Positions 47,123 to 57,691 of a stretch of 58,569 nucleotides of DNA are shown piece after piece; the first letter of the stretch is position 1; each line of letters starts with the position of its first letter. The stretch covers positions 1 through 58,569 of the forward strand of contig JAABTL010000016.1 in assembly GCA_011389865.1 (NCBI GenBank). The letters are read 5' to 3'. The stretch is from Trueperaceae bacterium. GTDB taxonomy: Bacteria > Deinococcota > Deinococci > Deinococcales > Trueperaceae. The notes beneath the pieces are model-generated. The model did not search any database, was not told the DNA's origin, and saw nothing but the letters and a program-made list of their open reading frames with translations. Made by a program: the position numbers and the translations under genes.

Positions 47123-48499
47123 GTGGCGCGGCTGACCGCCTCGGGCATCGAGTTCGCCTACGTCGCCGGCAAACCGGTGGTGCAGGACGTGTCGGTGGCG
47201 GTCGACGCCGGCGAGGTCGTGTTCCTGCTCGGCCACAACGGGAGCGGCAAGAGCAGCCTCCTCGGCTGCCTCGCGGGCGTGCACCGGCCGTCGTCCGGCC
47301 AGGTGCTGCTCGACGGCGAGGACGTGCACGCCATGAGCGCCCCCGCCCGCGCGCGGCGCCTCGGCATGATCCCGCAGCTGCACGTCGCGGCCTTCGCCTA
47401 CGACGTGCTCGAGGTGGTGCTGATGGGCCGCGCGCCGCACCTGGGCACCTTCGAGGCACCGGGTCCCGAGGACGAGGCGATCGCGCTCGACGCGCTCGCC
47501 CTGGTCGGCCTGACGGACTTCCGGAACCGCCGCTACACCGAGCTCAGCGGCGGCGAGCGCCAGCTGGTGATGGTCGCCCGCGGCCTCGCGCAGCGCTGCG
47601 ACGTCCTGCTGATGGACGAGCCCGACGCCCACCTCGACCCGCGCAACCAGTTCCGTGTGCTCGAGGTCGTCTCCGATCTCGCCCGCCAGCGGGGCCTGGC
47701 GGTGGTCATCGCCTCCCACGCGCCCAACAGCGCCCTGATGTTCGCCGACCGGGTCCTGCTGCTGCGCCACGGCCGCACGCTGGCCATGGGCGGCGTGAAC
47801 CAGACGCTCGACGAGGAGCGCCTGACCGCCGCCTACGGCATGCCGACCGAGGTCGTCACCAAGGTCGTCGCCGGCCGCCGCGTGCCGCGCGCCATCCTCC
47901 CCCGGCGCATCGACCGCGTCGCGGACGAGGTCGACACGATCGCGGTGCACCGCGCCGACGTCGAGCGGCCCGGCACCCTGCTGGACCGCGTCTTCGCCGC
48001 CGGCGCGCGGCGACCACAGCGGCTGATCGTCACCGGCGCGCGCGGCACCGGCAAGAGCCTGTGGTGCGCCGCGGTCGCCGAGACGGCCCGCGCGCGCGGC
48101 CTGCGGGTCGCGGGCGTGTCGTCGCCGGCCGTGATCGAGGGCGGCCGCAAGACCGCCATCGACCTCGTCGACCTGGGCACGGGGCAGCGGCGGCGACTGG
48201 CCGAGGTGCGTCGCGCCGACGAGCCGGGGACCGCCACCCAGCGCTGGCGCTTCGCGGAGAACGCGCTCGCATGGGGCAACGAGGTCCTGCGGGCCGCCGC
48301 GGAGGCACCCGGCGTCGACCTGCTGCTGGTCGACGAGCTCGGCCCGCTCGAGTTCGTTCGTGGCGAGGGGTTCACCGAGGGCCTGGCAGCGGTCGACGCG
48401 CGGCACTACGCCGTCGCGCTCGCCGTGGTGCGCCCGGCCCTGGTCGACGAGGCGCTGCGGCGGTGGCCGGACGCGGTGGTGGTGGACGTCGAGGACTAG
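47123..48499 (+). CDS. ABC importer ATPase fused to a THEP1-like P-loop NTPase
   Basis: 458 residues. Residues 1-~250 are a FecE/BtuD-type ATPase: Walker A LLGHNGSGKSSLLG, signature YTELSGGERQLVMVARGLAQ, Walker B VLLMDEPDAHLDP and switch His in VIASHAPN. After a ~45-residue link a second P-loop domain begins: LIVTGARGTGKS (about 301-312), then VSSPAVIEGGRKTAIDLVDL and Walker B LLLVDELGPLEF (about 400-411). This second part resembles nucleoside-triphosphatases of the THEP1/NTPase_1 or DUF2478 type. Such a fusion is not something I know from standard importers. It may gate the transporter or process its cargo. The start GTG is 1 nt after the permease stop. Two perfect hairpins follow the stop. 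Confidence 0.88.
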   Translation: MARLTASGIEFAYVAGKPVVQDVSVAVDAGEVVFLLGHNGSGKSSLLGCLAGVHRPSSGQVLLDGEDVHAMSAPARARRLGMIPQLHVAAFAYDVLEVVLMGRAPHLGTFEAPGPEDEAIALDALALVGLTDFRNRRYTELSGGERQLVMVARGLAQRCDVLLMDEPDAHLDPRNQFRVLEVVSDLARQRGLAVVIASHAPNSALMFADRVLLLRHGRTLAMGGVNQTLDEERLTAAYGMPTEVVTKVVAGRRVPRAILPRRIDRVADEVDTIAVHRADVERPGTLLDRVFAAGARRPQRLIVTGARGTGKSLWCAAVAETARARGLRVAGVSSPAVIEGGRKTAIDLVDLGTGQRRRLAEVRRADEPGTATQRWRFAENALAWGNEVLRAAAEAPGVDLLLVDELGPLEFVRGEGFTEGLAAVDARHYAVALAVVRPALVDEALRRWPDAVVVDVED

Positions 48500-48654: not shown

Positions 48655-48741
48655 ATGACCAACGCATCGTCTATTCCCCAATTCGGCGATGGCGACGGTC
48701 GGGCCCCGCTCGGCGAGGGGCCGAGAGGGGTCGGCGGATGA
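48655..48741 (+). CDS. Possible 28-residue leader peptide overlapping the regulator start
   Basis: A frame from ATG at 48655 reads MTNASSIPQFGDGDGRAPLG and eight further residues and stops with TGA at 48739-48741. That TGA overlaps the ATG of the Rrf2-type gene (ATGA), so ribosomes finishing the leader could restart on the regulator. It begins 9 nt after the -10 hexamer. No homologue is known to me and it lacks a Shine-Dalgarno sequence; it may simply be part of a leader RNA. Confidence 0.35.
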   Translation: MTNASSIPQFGDGDGRAPLGEGPRGVGG

Positions 48742-49160
48742 CGCAATCGACCGGGTACGCGATCACGGCGTTGGGCCACGTGGCGGCCATGGGCGACCAG
48801 CCGCTGCTGATCAAGGACATCGCGGAGGCCACCGGCCTGCCGCACCCCTACCTCGCGAAGATCATCCACACGCTGGCGCGGCGCGGCCTGGTGGTCACCC
48901 GACGCGGCGTCGGCGGAGGCGTGACGCTCGCCAAGCCGGCGGCGCTGATCACCCTCTTCGACATCGCCGAGGCGCTCGACGACCCCCTGTTGGACGAGCG
49001 CTGCATGCTCGGCGCCGCCGAGTGCAGCGACGAGCGCGCGTGCCCCGCCCACGAGTTCTGGACGGAGCACCGGCGGGCACAGATCGACTTCCTGCGCGAC
49101 CGTTCGCTCGCCGACGTCGCCGCCTTCGAGCGGCGGCAGCTCGAGCGGAGCGCGGCGTGA
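48738..49160 (+). CDS. Rrf2-family regulator with a CX6CX5C motif
   Basis: 140 residues. Winged helix at the N terminus (GYAITALGHVAAMGDQPLLI, IAEATGLPHPYLAKIIHTLA, GLVVTRRGVGGGVTLAK) is that of Rrf2/IscR/NsrR regulators. Three cysteines at residues 89, 96 and 102 match the Fe-S cluster position of IscR and NsrR (there CX5CX5C-like), so it likely senses NO, O2 or Fe-S status through a [2Fe-2S] or [4Fe-4S] cluster. It stands between a metal-type importer and a [NiFe] hydrogenase operon, both on the same strand, and is a natural candidate to control either or both. It has its own promoter at 48616-48645. Confidence 0.9.
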   Translation: MTQSTGYAITALGHVAAMGDQPLLIKDIAEATGLPHPYLAKIIHTLARRGLVVTRRGVGGGVTLAKPAALITLFDIAEALDDPLLDERCMLGAAECSDERACPAHEFWTEHRRAQIDFLRDRSLADVAAFERRQLERSAA

Positions 49161-49548: not shown

Positions 49549-50808
49549 ATGAGCCGAGCCCGCACGCAAGCCGATCCCGAGGCGATCGATCGGACGCTGG
49601 ACGAAGCGTCGATCGAGCATTACGAGCGCCTCGCGGCGGAGGCCGACCAGCACCTGGACAAGCTGGCGGCGCAGGCCCCGCTGAAGGACACGACGCTCGA
49701 GTACCAACTGCGCAAGCGCGGCGTCACGCGGCGCGAGTTCCTCAAGATGACGGCGGTCATGACCGCCACGATGGCGCTGCCGTCGATGTTCGACCTGCGC
49801 GTCGCACGCGCGGCCGAGCTCGCGACCCGCCTGCCCGTCATCTGGCAGGAGCTGCAGTCGTGCACGGGCAACAGCATGGCTCTCATCCGCAACAGCAATC
49901 CAGGCGTCGACGAGTTGATCCTCGACCTCATCAGCCTCGAATACGCCGAGGTGCTGATGGCGCCCTCCGGCCAGGCCGCCGAGGACGTTCTCGAGGCCTC
50001 CATCGAGCGGTACCGCGGCGAGTACATCGCCGTCTTCGAGGGTTCGGTCCCCATGGCCGACGACGGCAACTTCCTGACGATCGGCCCCGCCGGCCACACC
50101 GGCATCGAGGTCGTCAAGCACGTCGCCGAGAACTCCGCCGCCATCATCGCGGCCGGCACCTGCGCGGCCTACGGCGGCATCCCCGCCGCCCGCCCGAACC
50201 CGACGGCCGCCCTCGGCATCGCCGACTTCCTCAACACCCAGCGGATCAACAAGCCGGTCGTCAACCTGCCGGCCTGTCCCGTGTCGAGCACCAACGTCGT
50301 CGGCACCATCCTCGAGTACGCCCTGTTCGGGCGGCTCCCCTCGCTCGACGCCTTCGGCCGCCCGCTGTGGGCCTACGGCGACCGCATCCACGACAAGTGC
50401 GAGCGGCGCGGCCACTTCGACGCCGGCCAGTTCGTTGAGGGCTGGAGCGACACCGAAGGCCTGAAGGCGGGCCTGTGCCTCTACAAGGTCGGCTGCAAGG
50501 GCCCGATGGCCTACAACAACTGCGGCGTCGTGCGCTACAACGACGGCACCTCCTGGCCGATCATGGCCGGCCACGGCTGCATCGGCTGCAGCGAGCCGGG
50601 CTTCTGGGACACCCTCACCCCGTTCGAAGTGCCCCTCGCCGGCCGTCGCTACCCCGTCTTCGGGATCGACGCCGACGCCGACACCATCGGTGCGGTCGCC
50701 CTGGGCGCCGCGGCCGTCGGCATCGTCGCCCACGCGGGCGCGACCATGGTCAAGAGCGCGACCGAGCAGCGCGCCGCCAAGAAGCCCGAAGCCAAGAAGG
50801 AGCAGTGA
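49549..50808 (+). CDS. [NiFe] hydrogenase small subunit, Tat-exported, membrane-anchored
   Basis: 419 residues. A ~55-residue charged helical N-terminal extension precedes the Tat signal (GVTRREFLKMTAVMTATMAL; twin Arg 61-62). The Fe-S protein then begins LPVIWQELQSCTGNSMALIR. Compared with the standard ECTGCSES, Cys105 is kept but the second proximal-cluster Cys is Asn108. Remaining proximal ligands are Cys205 (AGTCAAYGG) and Cys243 (LPACPVSS). Medial and distal ligands are present in DKCERRGHFDAGQF, LCLYKVGCKGPMAYNNCG and GHGCIGCSEPGFWD. One membrane helix near the C terminus (TIGAVALGAAAVGIVAHAGA) anchors it facing the periplasm. Group 1 (uptake) type: it passes electrons from H2 to the cytochrome b encoded behind the large subunit. 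GAGGAGGA precedes the ATG. Confidence 0.95.
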   Translation: MSRARTQADPEAIDRTLDEASIEHYERLAAEADQHLDKLAAQAPLKDTTLEYQLRKRGVTRREFLKMTAVMTATMALPSMFDLRVARAAELATRLPVIWQELQSCTGNSMALIRNSNPGVDELILDLISLEYAEVLMAPSGQAAEDVLEASIERYRGEYIAVFEGSVPMADDGNFLTIGPAGHTGIEVVKHVAENSAAIIAAGTCAAYGGIPAARPNPTAALGIADFLNTQRINKPVVNLPACPVSSTNVVGTILEYALFGRLPSLDAFGRPLWAYGDRIHDKCERRGHFDAGQFVEGWSDTEGLKAGLCLYKVGCKGPMAYNNCGVVRYNDGTSWPIMAGHGCIGCSEPGFWDTLTPFEVPLAGRRYPVFGIDADADTIGAVALGAAAVGIVAHAGATMVKSATEQRAAKKPEAKKEQ

Positions 50809-50811
50809 GTC

Positions 50812-52500
50812 GTGGCCAAACATGTGATTGACCCCATCACGCGCATCGAGGGGCACCTGCGCATCGAGATCGAGGTCGACGACGCCGGCAACGTGTTCGA
50901 GGCGAACTCGAGCAGCACCGCGTTCCGCGGCTTCGAGACGATCATGAAGGGCCGCGACCCGCGCGACGTCGGCATGTTCGCCCAGCGCATCTGCGGCGTC
51001 TGCACCTTCCACCACTACGAGCGCGGCGTCGAGGCGACCGAGAGCGTCTTCGGCGCGACCATCCCGCCGAACGCGCGCTCGCTGCGCAGCCTGATCTGGG
51101 CCGCGCAGACGATCAACGACCACAGCACGCACTTCTACCAGCTGCACGCGATGGACTGGTTCGACGTCGTCAGCGCCCTCGGCGCCGACCCCGAGGCCGC
51201 CACCGAAGAGGCGCTGCGCTACCACTCGAGCCCGTTCAACGCGTCGGTCAGCCACTACCGCGCGGTCGCGGCCAAGCTGCTGGCCTTCGTCGAGAGCGGC
51301 CAACTCGGGCCCTTCGCCGGCGGCTACTGGGGCCACCCCAAGTACCTGCTCACCCCCGAGCAGAACCTGATCCTGGCGTCGCACTACCTCGACAACCTGT
51401 CGATCCAGCGCCTCAGTGCCCAGGCCTCCGCCGTCTTCGGCGGCAAGAACCCGCACCCGCAGAGCCTGATCGTCGGCGGCATCACCTCCGCTCGTGACGG
51501 CCTCGACGCCCACCGCATCGCGCAGTACCAGTTCCTCATGCAGAAGTCGATGGACTTCGTCGAGCGCGCCTACCTGCCCGACATGGAGATGATCGGCAAC
51601 GCGTACCGCGCCGAGGCCCTGGCCGGTCACGGCGCCGGCGTGCCGAACTACATGAGCTTCGGTGGACTGTCGCTCAGCGAGGGGGCGTGGGACGACCGCA
51701 CGTACCTGCTGCCACGCGGCATCGTCAGGGACCGCGACCTCTCCAGCGTCGAACCCGTCGACGCCATGAAGATCGGCGAGGAGGTCGCGCACTCCTGGTA
51801 CACCTACAGCGGCGGCGAGACCTCGCTGCACCCGCTGCGCGGCCAGACCAACCCGGCCTACGAGGGCTTCGAGTCCGACGGCACGCTCAAGACCACCGGC
51901 GGCTACAGCTGGATCAAGTCGCCGCGCTACGACGGCATGCCCGTCGAGGTCGGCCCGCTGGCGCGCATGATCGTCGGTTACGCGTCCGGCCAGCCCGAGG
52001 TGCGCGCGGTCATGGACGACTACGCCGCCAAGCTCGGCGTCCCCTTCGAGTTCTTCTACTCGACCGTCGGTCGCACGGTGGCCCGCGCGCTCGAGACCAA
52101 GGTGATCGGTGACTACCTCCCGACGCTTCTCGGTGGGCTCATCAACAACGTCAAGGGCGGCGACGACCGCTTCTTCAACCGCTACGACGCCAAGGACGGC
52201 GAGGGCTACGGCATGGGCGAGGCGCCCCGCGGCAGCCTCAGCCACTGGCTCGTCGTCAAGGACGGCGCGGTCGAGAACTACCAGGCGGTCGTGCCGTCGA
52301 CCTGGAACGCGGGTCCGCGGGACAGCCAGGGCCAGCGCGGCGCGTACGAGGCGGCGTTGGTCGGCCAGCCGATGGCGGATCCCGAGAGCCCGCTCGAGGT
52401 CGTCCGGACGATCCACTCCTTCGATCCCTGCCTCGCCTGCGCGGTGCACGTGCTCAACCGCAAGGGTGAGGAGATCGCGTACTACGAAGTGGAGGTGTGA
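50812..52500 (+). CDS. [NiFe] hydrogenase large subunit
   Basis: 562 residues. The N terminus IDPITRIEGHLRIEIEVDD has the RIEGH segment with the proton-transfer Glu. The Ni ligands are in RICGVCTFHH (Cys61, Cys64) and DPCLACAVH (Cys540, Cys543). After His546 a 16-residue tail (VLNRKGEEIAYYEVEV) is expected to be removed by the maturation protease encoded two genes downstream. The chain oxidises H2 at a NiFe(CN)2CO centre. It is exported with the small subunit by Tat after folding. The start is GTG with AAGGAG 9 nt upstream, 3 nt after the small-subunit stop. Confidence 0.97.
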   Translation: MAKHVIDPITRIEGHLRIEIEVDDAGNVFEANSSSTAFRGFETIMKGRDPRDVGMFAQRICGVCTFHHYERGVEATESVFGATIPPNARSLRSLIWAAQTINDHSTHFYQLHAMDWFDVVSALGADPEAATEEALRYHSSPFNASVSHYRAVAAKLLAFVESGQLGPFAGGYWGHPKYLLTPEQNLILASHYLDNLSIQRLSAQASAVFGGKNPHPQSLIVGGITSARDGLDAHRIAQYQFLMQKSMDFVERAYLPDMEMIGNAYRAEALAGHGAGVPNYMSFGGLSLSEGAWDDRTYLLPRGIVRDRDLSSVEPVDAMKIGEEVAHSWYTYSGGETSLHPLRGQTNPAYEGFESDGTLKTTGGYSWIKSPRYDGMPVEVGPLARMIVGYASGQPEVRAVMDDYAAKLGVPFEFFYSTVGRTVARALETKVIGDYLPTLLGGLINNVKGGDDRFFNRYDAKDGEGYGMGEAPRGSLSHWLVVKDGAVENYQAVVPSTWNAGPRDSQGQRGAYEAALVGQPMADPESPLEVVRTIHSFDPCLACAVHVLNRKGEEIAYYEVEV

Positions 52501-52502
52501 AC

Positions 52503-53294
52503 GTGGCGACCCGCGCGGTTGGAGCCAAGCGCAGCGCGGTCGTGGTCGAGCGGCCGGGCCGGCCGGCGCTCGTGGTGTACGTCTTCGGACGCTACATCCG
52601 CGCCGCGCACTGGATCCGCAACGCCCTGCTGATCTGGCTGGTGCTCAGCGGCATCTACATCGGCAACCCGTTCCTGGCCCGCGTGCTGTACCCGGAGACG
52701 GCCGAGGGCTTCGTCATGGCCCAGATCCGCGGCTGGCACGTCGCCGCCGGCTGGATCCTGCTCGCCTTCACCCTGGCGCGCATCTACCAGTTCCTGTTCG
52801 TCAACAGGGAGGGCAAGCTCGGCATCGGCGCGGAACTGCGGATGGCGCCCATCATGTTCAGCTGGAAGGCCTGGCGCGACCAGCTCGCCTTCTACCTGCT
52901 CATGCGCCGCGATCACCCGCACTTCACCTACAGCAACTACGGCCCGCTGCAGTTCCTCGTGTACACGATGCTGTACGCCTCGCTGCTGGTCATCAGCATC
53001 ACGGGCATCATCCTCGCGTCGCCGTACGTGTCGGGCGGCCTCGCCAGCTTCGGGGCCGACCTGCTGCGGCCGATCGAGGTGTGGATGGGCGGCCTGTCGA
53101 ACGTCCGGGCGGTGCACCGCTTCGTGATGTGGTTCTTCGTCCTGTTCACCGTCGCCCACATCTACATGGCCGTGTGGAACAGCATCCGGACCGGCGGCCT
53201 GATCATCGAGGGCATCGTCTCCGGCTTCAAGGCCGACGACGTCGAGACCACGCACGTCAGCAAGGAAGAGCTCGACAAGGGCAAGGCCCAGTGA
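52503..53294 (+). CDS. Hydrogenase cytochrome b subunit (HyaC-like)
   Basis: 263 residues with four membrane helices (about 35-55, 75-100, 150-175 and 200-225). His residues expected to bind two b hemes are in RAAHWIRNALLIW, IRGWHVAAGW, VRAVHRFVMWFF and VAHIYMAVWN. It takes electrons from the small subunit and passes them to the quinone pool, making the enzyme a respiratory uptake hydrogenase. GGAGG at 52491-52495 is 7 nt before the GTG at 52503; a GTG at 52497 overlapping the large-subunit stop is the alternative. It ends 1 nt inside the protease gene. Confidence 0.93.
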   Translation: MATRAVGAKRSAVVVERPGRPALVVYVFGRYIRAAHWIRNALLIWLVLSGIYIGNPFLARVLYPETAEGFVMAQIRGWHVAAGWILLAFTLARIYQFLFVNREGKLGIGAELRMAPIMFSWKAWRDQLAFYLLMRRDHPHFTYSNYGPLQFLVYTMLYASLLVISITGIILASPYVSGGLASFGADLLRPIEVWMGGLSNVRAVHRFVMWFFVLFTVAHIYMAVWNSIRTGGLIIEGIVSGFKADDVETTHVSKEELDKGKAQ

Positions 53295-53848
53295 TGAACG
53301 CGCGCCCGCTCCTGGTGCTCGGCGTCGGCAACGTCTACTACGGCGACGAAGGCGCGGGTGTGCACCTGGTGCACTACCTCCGCACCAAGTACGCCTTCCC
53401 CCCGAACGTGGCGGTCGTCGACGGCGGCACGCTCGGCTGGCAGCTGCTCAACCTGATCGCCGAGTACGAGCACGTGGTCCTGATCGACGCGGTGGCCGCG
53501 CCCCCGGGCAAGGTCTACCGCTTCGGCAAGGGCGACGTGCCCGACGAGGTCGGCTACGGTAAGCTCTCCTCGCACGAGTGGGAGGTGCCCGACCTGCTGA
53601 CCGCCATGGACCTCTACGGCGACCTGCCCGACGTCACCATCGTGGCGATCGGCGTCGACCCGCTCGAGTTCGGGAAGGGCGAGGTGGGCGTCGCGCTCAG
53701 CCCGCTCATCCGCGAGCGGCTCGAGGCGCTCGCCACCGTCACGCTGCGCGAGCTCGAACGCCTGGGCGTCGAACCCACCGTGGTCCGGCCCGAACTGACG
53801 GCCAGCCAGCCGTTCACCGCAGAGGAGATCGTCCTGGCGCATGCATGA
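53294..53848 (+). CDS. Hydrogenase maturation protease (HyaD/HybD family)
   Basis: 184 residues. LLVLGVGNVYYGDEGAGVHLV carries the first Ni-binding Glu (about residue 17), VVLIDAVAAPPGK the Asp and LSSHEWEVPDLL the His, i.e. the three residues that read nickel in the folded large-subunit precursor. It cuts after the last His of DPCLACAVH. The length exceeds HyaD by little; the final ~20 residues (RPELTASQPFTAEEIVLAHA) are extra. The ATG overlaps the cytochrome b stop by 1 nt and the end overlaps hypA by 8 nt. Confidence 0.94.
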   Translation: MNARPLLVLGVGNVYYGDEGAGVHLVHYLRTKYAFPPNVAVVDGGTLGWQLLNLIAEYEHVVLIDAVAAPPGKVYRFGKGDVPDEVGYGKLSSHEWEVPDLLTAMDLYGDLPDVTIVAIGVDPLEFGKGEVGVALSPLIRERLEALATVTLRELERLGVEPTVVRPELTASQPFTAEEIVLAHA

Positions 53849-54191
53849 GTTCAGCCTGGTCATGAGCATGCTCGACCTGGCAGAGAAGGCGGCGCGCGCC
53901 GACGGTGCGCGCCGCATCTCTGCGATCCACCTCGAGATCGGCGCGCTGGCCGGCGTCGTCCCGGAGGCGCTGGAGTTCGCCTTCGAGGGCGCCCGCGTGG
54001 GAACGATGGCGGAGAATGCTCGCCTGGAGGTGACGTACCTCCCCGCCATCGCGTACTGTGCGACATGCCAGTCCGAGTTCGAACTCGACAACCGCTTCGG
54101 GATCGCCGTGTGCCCGTCCTGTGACACCCCGTCCGCCGACCTGCGCCAGGGCCGCGAGCTCCAGCTCGCCCACCTCGAGGTAGAGGAATGA
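53841..54191 (+). CDS. hypA: Hydrogenase nickel-incorporation protein HypA
   Basis: 116 residues. The N terminus MHEFSLVMSMLDLAEKAA has the Ni-binding Met-His, here followed by Glu as is typical. A zinc site is formed by CATCQSEFEL and CPSCDTP. HypA works with HypB to insert nickel into the large subunit. It overlaps the maturation protease gene by 8 nt and hypB by 4 nt (ATGA), so the three are tightly coupled. Confidence 0.96.
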   Translation: MHEFSLVMSMLDLAEKAARADGARRISAIHLEIGALAGVVPEALEFAFEGARVGTMAENARLEVTYLPAIAYCATCQSEFELDNRFGIAVCPSCDTPSADLRQGRELQLAHLEVEE

Positions 54192-55003
54192 GCGGACGCC
54201 CCGACGCCACCGAGCGCGGTTCGGCGCCAGCCGAACCGCAACCTGTGCCGGCGGCCGGCACGACCGCCAGCACACGCGATGTGAGGGTCAGCCCCCACGG
54301 CACCGCGGCGATCCCCGGGGCCCGCGTGGTGCAGGTGCAGAAGTCGCTGATGGTGCACAACGACGGCGTCGCCGCGGCCAACCGCGAGGCCTTCCGCGGC
54401 AGCCTGGTGCTCAACGTCGTCTCCAGCCCCGGGTCGGGGAAGACCGCGCTGCTCGAACGCACCGTCCGCGACCTGGATGGCGACCTCTCCGTCGCCATCG
54501 TGGTCGGCGACCTCGAGACCGACAACGACGCCGAGCGGCTGCACGCCGCAGGCGCGCCGTCCGTGCAGATCGTCACCGGCACCGTCTGCCACCTGGAGGC
54601 GGAGATGGTCGCCCGCGCGGTCGATCAGCTCGACCTGGGCGGCCTCGACGTGCTCGTCATCGAGAACGTCGGCAACCTGGTGTGTCCTGCCGCGTGGGAT
54701 CTCGGGGAAGACCTGCGCGTCACCATGCTCTCGGTGACCGAGGGTGAGGACAAGCCGCTGAAGTACCCGCGCATCTTCAAGGACGCCGACGCGGTGTTGA
54801 TCAACAAGATCGACATCGCCGAGGTCGTCGGCTTCGACCGCGTTCGCGCGCTCGACGCCGTCCGCAAGGTGGCGCCCGGCGCCCGCGTGTTCGAGCTCTC
54901 GGCGCGCACCGGCGAGGGCGTCGGCGACTGGCTCGACTACCTGCGTGAGCGGCGGCGGCTCAAGGCATCCGCGATCGCGGCGGCCGCGACCGACGCGAGC
55001 TGA
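54188..55003 (+). CDS. hypB: Hydrogenase accessory GTPase HypB
   Basis: 271 residues. G1 is VVSSPGSGKTALLERTV, switch regions include GDLETDNDAERL, and the specificity motif is LINKID. VTGTVCHLEAEMV provides the Cys-His of the metal site between protomers. The N-terminal ~45 residues are Pro/Thr/Ala-rich; the poly-His nickel store of some HypB proteins and the CxxC metal motif at the N terminus are absent. It supplies GTP energy for nickel delivery with HypA. hypF follows after 4 nt. Confidence 0.95.
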   Translation: MSGRPDATERGSAPAEPQPVPAAGTTASTRDVRVSPHGTAAIPGARVVQVQKSLMVHNDGVAAANREAFRGSLVLNVVSSPGSGKTALLERTVRDLDGDLSVAIVVGDLETDNDAERLHAAGAPSVQIVTGTVCHLEAEMVARAVDQLDLGGLDVLVIENVGNLVCPAAWDLGEDLRVTMLSVTEGEDKPLKYPRIFKDADAVLINKIDIAEVVGFDRVRALDAVRKVAPGARVFELSARTGEGVGDWLDYLRERRRLKASAIAAAATDAS

Positions 55004-55007
55004 CGGC

Positions 55008-57459
55008 GTGGCCGCCGAACGGCGGCGCCTGCGCGTCACCGGCACCGTGCAGGGCGTCGGCTTCCGACCCTTCATCTACCGCCTGGCCCGCGAGCACGCG
55101 CTCGTGGGCTGGGTGCGCAACGACGTGCACGGCGTGACGATCGAGGTGGCCGGCGACGCCGACGTGCTCGACGGGTTCGCCGCCGCCATCGCCGCCGAGG
55201 CGCCGCCCGCGGCGCGCGTCGAGGCGGTCGCCGAGCTCGAGCGCGTTGCGGCGTCGCCGGAAGGCGCGGCGTCGACCGATGCCTCGCACGGCTTCGTCAT
55301 CGTCCCGAGCGAGGACGCCAGCGACGTCACGACCGCGATCTCGCCCGACCTGCCGGTGTGCGACGACTGCCTGCGCGAGATGCGTGACCCGGCCGACCGC
55401 CGGCACGGCTATCCGTTCATCAACTGCACCAACTGCGGGCCGCGCTACTCGATCATCGAGGCGCTCCCCTACGACCGCCCGCTCACCACCATGCGCGGCT
55501 TCGCCATGTGCGAGGACTGCGCCCGCGAGTACCACGACCCGCTCGACCGCCGCTTCCACGCCCAGCCGACCGCTTGCCCACGCTGTGGGCCGCGGCTCCG
55601 CTACCTGGCGTCCCCGGCCGCCGACATGGCGATCGGCCCCGGCCGTGAGGCCGGCCCCGGGGCCGGACCGGATCCCGAGGCCCGACTCGCGTCCCGCGAG
55701 GGCGTGTGGGACGACGCGGCGCTCGCCGCCACCGTCGCCGCCCTGCGGGCCGGCAGCATCGTCGCGGTCAAGGGCCTCGGCGGCTACCACCTCGCCTGTG
55801 ACGCGCGCGACGCCGGCGCGGTGCGCGCCTTGCGCGAGCGCAAGTACCGCAAGGAGAAGCCGTTCGCGGTCATGGCCCGCGACCTGGCCGCGCTGGACGG
55901 CGTCGTGGACCTCGACGACGAGGAGCGGGCGCTGCTGGCGTCGAGCGCGCGGCCGATCGTGCTGGCGCCCAAGGGGGCCCTCGCCCTTGCGGCGCCCCGC
56001 CCTTGCGCGCGCACCCGCCCTTGCGCGCGCGCGCGCGTTGACCGCCGACGCGCCCCTACCCGACGAGCTCGCGCCCGACAACGCCTACCTCGGCGTCATG
56101 CTGCCCTACACCCCCGTGCAGCACCTGCTGTTCGACGGCGGCGCCCCCGACCTGCTGGTGATGACCAGCGCCAACCGCTCCTCCGAGCCGATCGCCTACC
56201 GCGACGAGGAGGCGCTCGAGCGCCTCGCGGGCATGGCCGACGCCTTCCTGATCGGCGAGCGGCCGATCGCCCGACGCGTCGACGACAGCGTCGCGCAGGT
56301 GGTCGCGGGGGGCGCCGCCGTCGGTCGCCGGGCCCGCGGCTACGCCCCCGCGCCGGTGCTGCGCAGCGAGCGCTTCGAGCGGCCGCTGCTGGCCCTGGGC
56401 GCCGAGCTCAAGAGCAGCGTCGCGCTCGCGGTCGGCGAGACGGCCTACGTCAGCCAGCACCTGGGCGACCTCGGCGATCTCGAGTCGTTCACGGCCTTCC
56501 AGGAGACGGTCTACGACCTGTGCGCCATGTACCGCGTCGACCCGCGACGCGTGCGCCTGGTCCACGACCTCCACCCCGCCTACCCCAGCAGCCGCTTCGC
56601 GGAGCAGCTCGGCGGCGAGCGCGTCGCCGTGCAGCACCACGCCGCCCACGTCGCCAGCGTCCTCGCCGAACACGCCGCGTGGGACGCCCAGGTGCTCGGC
56701 TTCGCGTTCGACGGCGCCGGCCTCGGCGACGACGGCACGGTGTGGGGCGGTGAGGTCTTCCACGGCAGCCTCGACGGTGGCCTGCGGCGCGTCGCCCACC
56801 TGCGGCCCGCCTCGCTGCCCGGCGGTGACGCCGCCGCCCGCACGCCCGTGCAGGCCGCGGTCGGCTGGTTGGCCGCCCTCGGCGACGAGGCCCTCGACCG
56901 GCTGCTCGAGCCGCCGTTCGCGTTCCCACCCGCCCGCGTGGCGGTCGCGCGGCGGCTGGTCGCGACGGGCGTGAACGCGCCCGCCACCACCAGCGTCGGC
57001 CGCCTGTTCGACACCGTCGCCGCGCTCCTCGGCTTCCACCACACGATGAGCTTCGAGGGCCAGGCGGCGATCGGCCTCGAGACGCTCGCGTGGCGGGCGC
57101 CCGAGGCCGAGCCCTACCCGTGGCCCTTCGACGGGACCACCTGGGACCACGCGCCGCTGCTGGCGGCCGTCATGGCCGACGTCGAGGCCGGCGCGCCGCC
57201 CGCCGTCGTCGCCCGCCGCTTCCACGAGGCGCTGGCGCAGGGCGTGCTGGAGGCGGCCGTCGCGCTGCGCGCCCACCACCCCTTCGAGCGCGTCGCCCTC
57301 TCGGGCGGCGTCTTCCAGAACCGCCTGCTCCTCGAACGCGTCGTGGCGAGGCTCGACGCACAGGACATCGGGCACTGGCGCAACGCCGCCGTGCCGACGA
57401 ACGATGGTGGCATCTCGCTCGGCCAGCTCGCCATGGCCGTGACCCTGCCGGGAGGATGA
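55008..57459 (+). CDS. hypF: Carbamoyltransferase HypF, frameshifted in this sequence
   Basis: HypF makes the cyanide precursor for the NiFe site from carbamoyl phosphate. The first part (55008 to about 55980) encodes an acylphosphatase domain (VTGTVQGVGFRPFIYRLARE), zinc fingers (CDDCLREM, CTNCGPRYS, CEDCAREYH, CPRCGPRL) and the start of the YrdC domain up to ARPIVLAPKG. The second part (about 56041 to 57459), in the +1 frame, continues with DELAPDNAYLGVMLPYTPVQ and the Kae1-like domain (VQHHAAHVASVLAEH, FAFDGAGLGDDGTVWGGEVF, ALSGGVFQNRLLLERVV). The break lies inside a repeat at 55982-56037, and adding 2 nt there would restore one ~816-residue chain. It is either a real mutation, a slippage-controlled gene, or a sequence error. 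The start is GTG. Confidence 0.85.
55982..56037 (+). repeat. Tandem repeat and GC-dinucleotide run at the hypF frameshift
   Basis: CGCCCTTGCG occurs at 55982, 55998 and 56016, that is with spacings of 16 and 18 nt. The third unit runs into (GC)7G at 56023-56037. The first unit lacks two bases (CG) compared with the second, which is exactly the shift between the two hypF parts. Confidence 0.88.
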
Positions 57460-57463
57460 GATC

Positions 57464-57691
57464 ATGTGTCTAGGAATTCCCCACGAAGTGGTCGACGTGC
57501 TCGACCAGGACCGCTGCCTGATTCGCTTGGGCGGCGCCACGCAGCACTGCTTCATCGGCCTGATCGACGACCTGAAGGCCGGCGACTGGGTCGTGGTGCA
57601 CGCGGGCTTCGCCATCGACAAGATCGCGCCCGAGGACGCTCGCGCGAACCTCGAGCTGATCGAGAAGTACCTGGAACCCATCCGTGACTGA
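57464..57691 (+). CDS. hypC: Hydrogenase assembly chaperone HypC
   Basis: 75 residues, the usual size. MCLGIPHEVVDVLDQD has the essential Cys2. It binds HypD to carry Fe(CN)2CO to the large subunit precursor. DLKAGDWVVVHAGFAIDKI is the conserved OB-fold ending. GGAGG ends 9 nt before the ATG. It overlaps hypD by 8 nt. Confidence 0.97.
   Translation: MCLGIPHEVVDVLDQDRCLIRLGGATQHCFIGLIDDLKAGDWVVVHAGFAIDKIAPEDARANLELIEKYLEPIRD

Follow-up and report, generated by a model that had tools for sequence, protein, structure and literature searches.

A conserved asparagine replaces a proximal-cluster cysteine in a putative respiratory [NiFe]-hydrogenase of Trueperaceae and other Deinococcota

The DNA analyzed here (the window; 58,569 nucleotides of contig JAABTL010000016.1 from a Trueperaceae bacterium) encodes a [NiFe]-hydrogenase small subunit in which an asparagine, Asn108, occupies the position of the second proximal cysteine. 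Sequence comparisons show that this substitution is real, conserved, and widespread among related small subunits; changes of this ligand were known before. Considering the sequence, its conservation, a covarying pocket, and the surrounding operon, we think it likely (probability roughly 0.8) that the enzyme is a Tat-exported, membrane-anchored respiratory uptake hydrogenase of group 1, of the Asn/Asp proximal-ligand type and most like group 1f, in which the non-thiolate site would raise the potential of the cluster. Trueperaceae and other Deinococcota can thereby be assigned a conserved, putative respiratory hydrogenase with an Asn ligand. The covarying pocket is the addition of this analysis and a modest new lead.

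The small subunit retains all cluster ligands except one

The window makes up a single contig of a draft genome totalling 3.05 Mb, and named records with 80–81% identical proteins belong to Trueperaceae, phylum Deinococcota. As described in the initial annotation, the small subunit contains the motif SCTGNSMA with Asn in place of the second proximal Cys, and the reading frame, coordinates, and codon all agree with that description (Table 1). In alignments, Asn108 lines up with the second proximal Cys of HoxK, HyaA, and HybO; the same column holds the Asp of C. necator HofK, and the likeness previously drawn to the actinobacterial-type Ralstonia enzyme is therefore apt. Every other ligand is kept, also as annotated: C105, C205, and C243 at the proximal cluster, C325, C344, and C347 with P337 at the medial cluster, and H281, C284, C310, and C316 at the distal cluster. 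By sequence, HoxK and the E. coli Hyd-1 small subunit are the nearest solved relatives, and the match to HoxK reaches the anchor region at the C-terminus of that protein. A 31-row alignment yielded a poor AlphaFold model of the mature small subunit: the mean pLDDT was 65, and values fell under 50 across most of its distal and medial parts.

The Tat twin arginines correspond to R61 and R62 and are invariant in the alignment of relatives; the Pfam TAT_signal match at residues 59–78 (E = 0.00073) lies just under the gathering cut-off. The 60-residue extension that precedes them is likewise real, but it is no mark of a new subtype, as had been proposed, because a long leader ahead of the Tat signal recurs in Sulfobacillus and in Asn-type Campylobacterota.

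Table 1. Features of the hydrogenase locus, with positions in the window.
Feature	Position	Strand	Basis
Rrf2-family regulator, three cysteines, directly upstream of the operon in Trueperaceae	48738..49160	+	PF02082, TIGR00738
[NiFe]-hydrogenase small subunit, Tat-type precursor, 419 aa	49549..50808	+	TIGR00391, 421.9 bits (cut-off 179.5); Pfam NiFe_hyd_SSU_C and Oxidored_q6
Extension before Tat twin arginines (residues 1–60)	49549..49728	+	Alignment with relatives
Tat signal, GVTRREFLKM... to ARAAEL (residues 58–91)	49720..49821	+	Pfam TAT_signal and alignment
Proximal-pocket residues 101–111 (E101, Q103, S104, C105, N108, A111)	49849..49881	+	Covariation with residue 108
Asn108 codon AAC, second proximal cysteine position	49870..49872	+	Codon readout and alignments
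Proximal ligand C205 and pocket residue P212	50161..50184	+	Alignment, covariation
Proximal ligand C243 and pocket residue V245 (CPV; CPP in most Cys types)	50275..50283	+	Alignment, covariation
Hydrogenase large subunit, GTG start, L1 RICGVCTFHH, L2 SFDPCLACAVH	50812..52500	+	PF00374, 642 bits; motifs
b-type cytochrome subunit (quinone-reducing membrane anchor)	52497..53294	+	TIGR02125, 157.6 bits (cut-off 121.5); PF01292
HyaD-type hydrogenase maturation protease	53294..53848	+	Reading frame and synteny; resembles annotated Sulfobacillus maturation protease
hypA	53841..54191	+	TIGR00100, 102.8 bits (cut-off 88.1)
hypB	54188..55003	+	TIGR00073, 261 bits (cut-off 121.2)
hypF in two reading frames, break between 56003 and 56047	54945..57459	+	tblastn of L102 ORF
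hypC	57464..57688	+	Reading frame and synteny
hypD, cut by contig end	57723..58569	+	

The operon is consistent with a membrane-anchored H2:quinone oxidoreductase

The gene order (small subunit, large subunit, cytochrome b, protease, hypA, hypB, hypF where present, hypC, hypD) is conserved in Deinococcota, and the end of hypE lies at the start of contig C27 of the same genome. This order, together with the Tat motif and the match to HoxK reaching the anchor region, fits a periplasmic, membrane-anchored H2:quinone oxidoreductase. Such an enzyme would oxidize H2 outside the cytoplasmic membrane. Electrons leaving the NiFe center are predicted to travel by way of the proximal cluster, the medial [3Fe-4S] cluster, and the distal (Cys3His) cluster to the b-type cytochrome, which would hand them on to the quinone pool. 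An earlier report described a genome of Trueperaceae that carries a hybC-type hydrogenase gene together with the CBB cycle and sqr (PMC8470020).

Because hypF is divided between two frames, the activity of the hydrogenase encoded in this single assembly is uncertain. The break, either an assembly error or real, falls in a GC-rich, repeat-like stretch, and the reading frame is intact in the nearest relative (L102). The cysteines of the Rrf2-family regulator (CMLGAAECSDERAC) are conserved in five Trueperaceae sequences and, given the position of its gene just upstream, suggest redox or Fe-S control of the operon. The product of positions 47123–48499 combines an ABC transporter ATPase and a P-loop NTPase domain (PF03266/DUF2478 matches) in one fused protein, and a FecCD-type permease is encoded next to it; the fusion is kept beside the operon in L102 and is divergently present in L110.

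The enzyme most resembles group 1f

The locus has the features of group 1 membrane-bound uptake hydrogenases: small and large subunits of the hydA and NiFeSe_Hases families, an RR motif with a TAT_signal match just below the cut-off, and a cytochrome b subunit above the TIGR02125 cut-off. Its small subunit also has Asn for a proximal Cys, in line with the Asn or Asp replacement given for group 1f (PMC5364354). In common with the group 1f enzymes of Roseiflexus, Geobacter, and Frankia, and with HyoSLE of Deferribacter, it combines Asn or Asp at this position with Tat export, a b-type cytochrome partner, and the motifs RxCGVCT and SFDPCLAC; however, the Deinococcota clade is not clearly joined to the Asp type of Desulfuromonadia and Myxococcota on the large-subunit tree. 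The Asn-type enzymes of Campylobacterota and Aquificota (LQDCAGNSEA) share the Asn at the same place, the pocket signature, and the long extension before the Tat signal, but are approximately 50% identical to the window enzyme and differ in having D104 rather than S104 and an L1 motif of RICGVCTGTH rather than RICGVCTFHH.

Three other groups resemble the window enzyme in part. The group 1h (actinobacterial-type) enzyme HofK/HofG (5AA5) has a non-Cys residue, Asp, in the same column, but is 28% identical, lacks a Tat signal, and has other L1 and L2 motifs; whereas group 1h is defined by L1 TSRICGICGDNH, L2 SFDPCLPCGVH, and no Tat signal (PMC5364354), the window contains MFAQRICGVCTFHH and IHSFDPCLACAVH and has a Tat signal. 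A plasmid record lists C. necator HofK (L014:3963-5018) under the name 'hydrogenase expression protein HypE'; from end to end, its sequence is the same as that of the 5AA5 small subunit. HupS of group 2a likewise has Asn at proximal position 2, but group 2a enzymes (HupS, HucS) are located on the cytoplasmic side and use different electron acceptors, and the Tat signal of the window separates it from a group defined by having no export signal (PMC6616624). The O2-tolerant group 1d enzymes HoxK and HyaA are the closest solved structures by sequence, are periplasmic, and have a cytochrome b partner; in contrast to the window, they have a six-Cys [4Fe-3S] proximal site, and their two extra proximal cysteines are replaced in the window by G107 and G210.

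Substitution of this ligand has several precedents. Some verrucomicrobial hydrogenases and those of group 2a have Asn instead of one of the four proximal cysteines, and in the group 1f enzymes of Roseiflexus, Geobacter, and Frankia the substitute is either Asn or Asp (PMC5364354). At proximal position 2, Cys-to-Asn and Cys-to-Asp changes are listed for N. punctiforme and G. metalloreducens, respectively (PMC4070099, Table 1), and engineered C81N and C81D variants remain active (PMC4070099). The Asn had been put forward as a possible different ligand solution; that it is a new one is not supported, as it has already been published for groups 1f and 2a (PMC5364354, PMC4070099, PMC6616624) and is what most relatives in this sample carry. 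Of the poorly described group 1 subtype that the initial annotation envisaged, the assignment to group 1 stands, as does the description as poorly studied if the enzyme belongs to group 1f, a group reported to be polyphyletic, with roles that extend from defence against oxidative stress to the uptake of H2 at sub-atmospheric levels (PMC6896113); a new ligand solution and the extension as subtype mark are not supported.

The non-thiolate site would raise the potential of the proximal cluster

The proximal cluster would be held by three cysteines together with Asn108, which may either bind weakly to a [4Fe-4S] cluster as its fourth ligand or lie beside a [3Fe-4S] cluster without ligating it. The potential of an iron-sulfur cluster is raised when a thiolate is exchanged for a neutral amide or when the fourth iron is lost. 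Either way, the missing thiolate would probably raise the potential of the proximal cluster and could favor H2 oxidation under oxic or low-H2 conditions.

Precedents from group 2a conflict on the type of cluster to be expected, and so also on the labile or 3Fe site raised as an alternative in the initial annotation. In Huc, all three clusters are [3Fe-4S] and the onset potential is raised (PMC10017518), and by this likeness in cluster type we tentatively entertain an enzyme in which Asn108 does not ligate, the proximal cluster is [3Fe-4S], and catalysis is tuned to trace-H2 scavenging. Group 2-type small subunits encoded beside the Campylobacterota loci, which also mostly carry Asn here, are in keeping with this possibility. 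However, a proximal [4Fe-4S] cluster coordinated by one Asn along with three Cys has been described for cyanobacterial HupS (PMC6616624), and the equivalent Asp of HofK is reported as the fourth ligand (PMC5364354). In the comparison of neighboring loci, the ligand type of the group 1 enzyme did not match that of the adjacent group 2-type small subunit, which is mostly Asn either way; the automatic motif calls in this comparison were unclean for L039 and L056, where another motif was caught, and for L037, where a group 1 paralogue was involved. In L037 (Arcobacter sp. LC1), a second small-subunit-like reading frame adjoins the Asn-type one; it has no twin arginines, and its motif, DCAGE, puts Glu in the place of the second proximal ligand.

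It is improbable that Asn108, in an Asn-Ser context prone to deamidation, is converted post-translationally to Asp to give an Asp-ligated [4Fe-4S] cluster as in HofK. Asn and Asp do alternate within one clade with the same pocket signature, as in Geobacteraceae, where L084 (Asn) lies beside the Asp-type L078, and the Asp of HofK occupies the same column. Yet Asn has been retained in genomes over long times, and in many relatives the residue that follows it is Thr.

Asparagine is conserved in Deinococcota and frequent among relatives

Each of the 14 Deinococcota genomes that extend across position 108 carries Asn there; three of them, at 61–66% identity, represent other families of the order. 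A fifteenth genome (G001), whose sequence stops before this residue, was left out of the count. The substitution is thus conserved in the clade, dispelling the concern voiced with the initial annotation that close homologues might have Cys or that the codon might be a base error. Since all other ligands are also kept, such conservation argues for selection rather than decay. These genomes rule out both an error in base calling and the decay of this one gene as the source of the Asn; nothing at the site itself speaks for either, the nearby hypF split is the only hint, and the probability is negligible. In the Deinococcota relative L114 (G084:C478), a second, group 1h-like small subunit reads SCDGC, with Cys where HofK has Asp.

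Residue 108 is Asn in 59, Asp in 8, and Cys in 35 of 102 aligned small subunits, a sample that unites a scan of a one-genome-per-species collection, a phylum search, and reference loci, and that is biased to relatives of the query and is no census. With Asn or Asp in 67 of the 102 sequences of this sample, the proximal Cys motif is not near-invariant here, contrary to what had been stated. The sampled Asn types come from Deinococcota, Campylobacterota, Aquificota, Bacillota (Sulfobacillus), Actinomycetota, Thermodesulfobacteriota, and Gammaproteobacteria, and the Asp types from Desulfuromonadia and Myxococcota, plus HofK.

Six further positions covary with residue 108

Six more positions of the small subunit part the Asn/Asp types from the Cys types almost completely: E/N versus H/S/G at 101, Q/S versus A/L at 103 (with Q kept in one Cys type), D/S versus E at 104, A versus S at 111, P versus Q at 212, and A/V/L/M versus P at 245. 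As these positions were picked by the Asn/Asp-versus-Cys contrast itself, the separation values are descriptive and no test. We offer as a speculative proposal that residues 101, 103, 104, 108, 111, 212, and 245 form a distinct seven-residue pocket, switched with the Cys type on more than one occasion within group 1, which in Deinococcota might hold a high-potential proximal cluster suiting oxic or trace-H2 respiration. The named residues can be swapped as a set to probe the role of a non-thiolate proximal ligand, which bears on O2 tolerance and catalytic bias.

A tree made without the pocket columns required four changes between the Asn/Asp and Cys states. The large-subunit tree rejected a single Asn/Asp clade (AU p = 0.0037), and the pocket type has therefore probably been gained or lost more than once, a conclusion weakened by long branches, separate subunit transfer, and the post hoc choice of groups. 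L047 and L049, in which the large subunit lies 6 kb away, were left out of the later covariation and AU tests. Joining the window clade to the Geobacter-type Asp enzymes of Desulfuromonadia and Myxococcota was marginal (AU p = 0.059) and gives no firm join, and a single clade uniting the window clade with the Asn types of Campylobacterota and Aquificota was compatible with the tree (AU p = 0.57).
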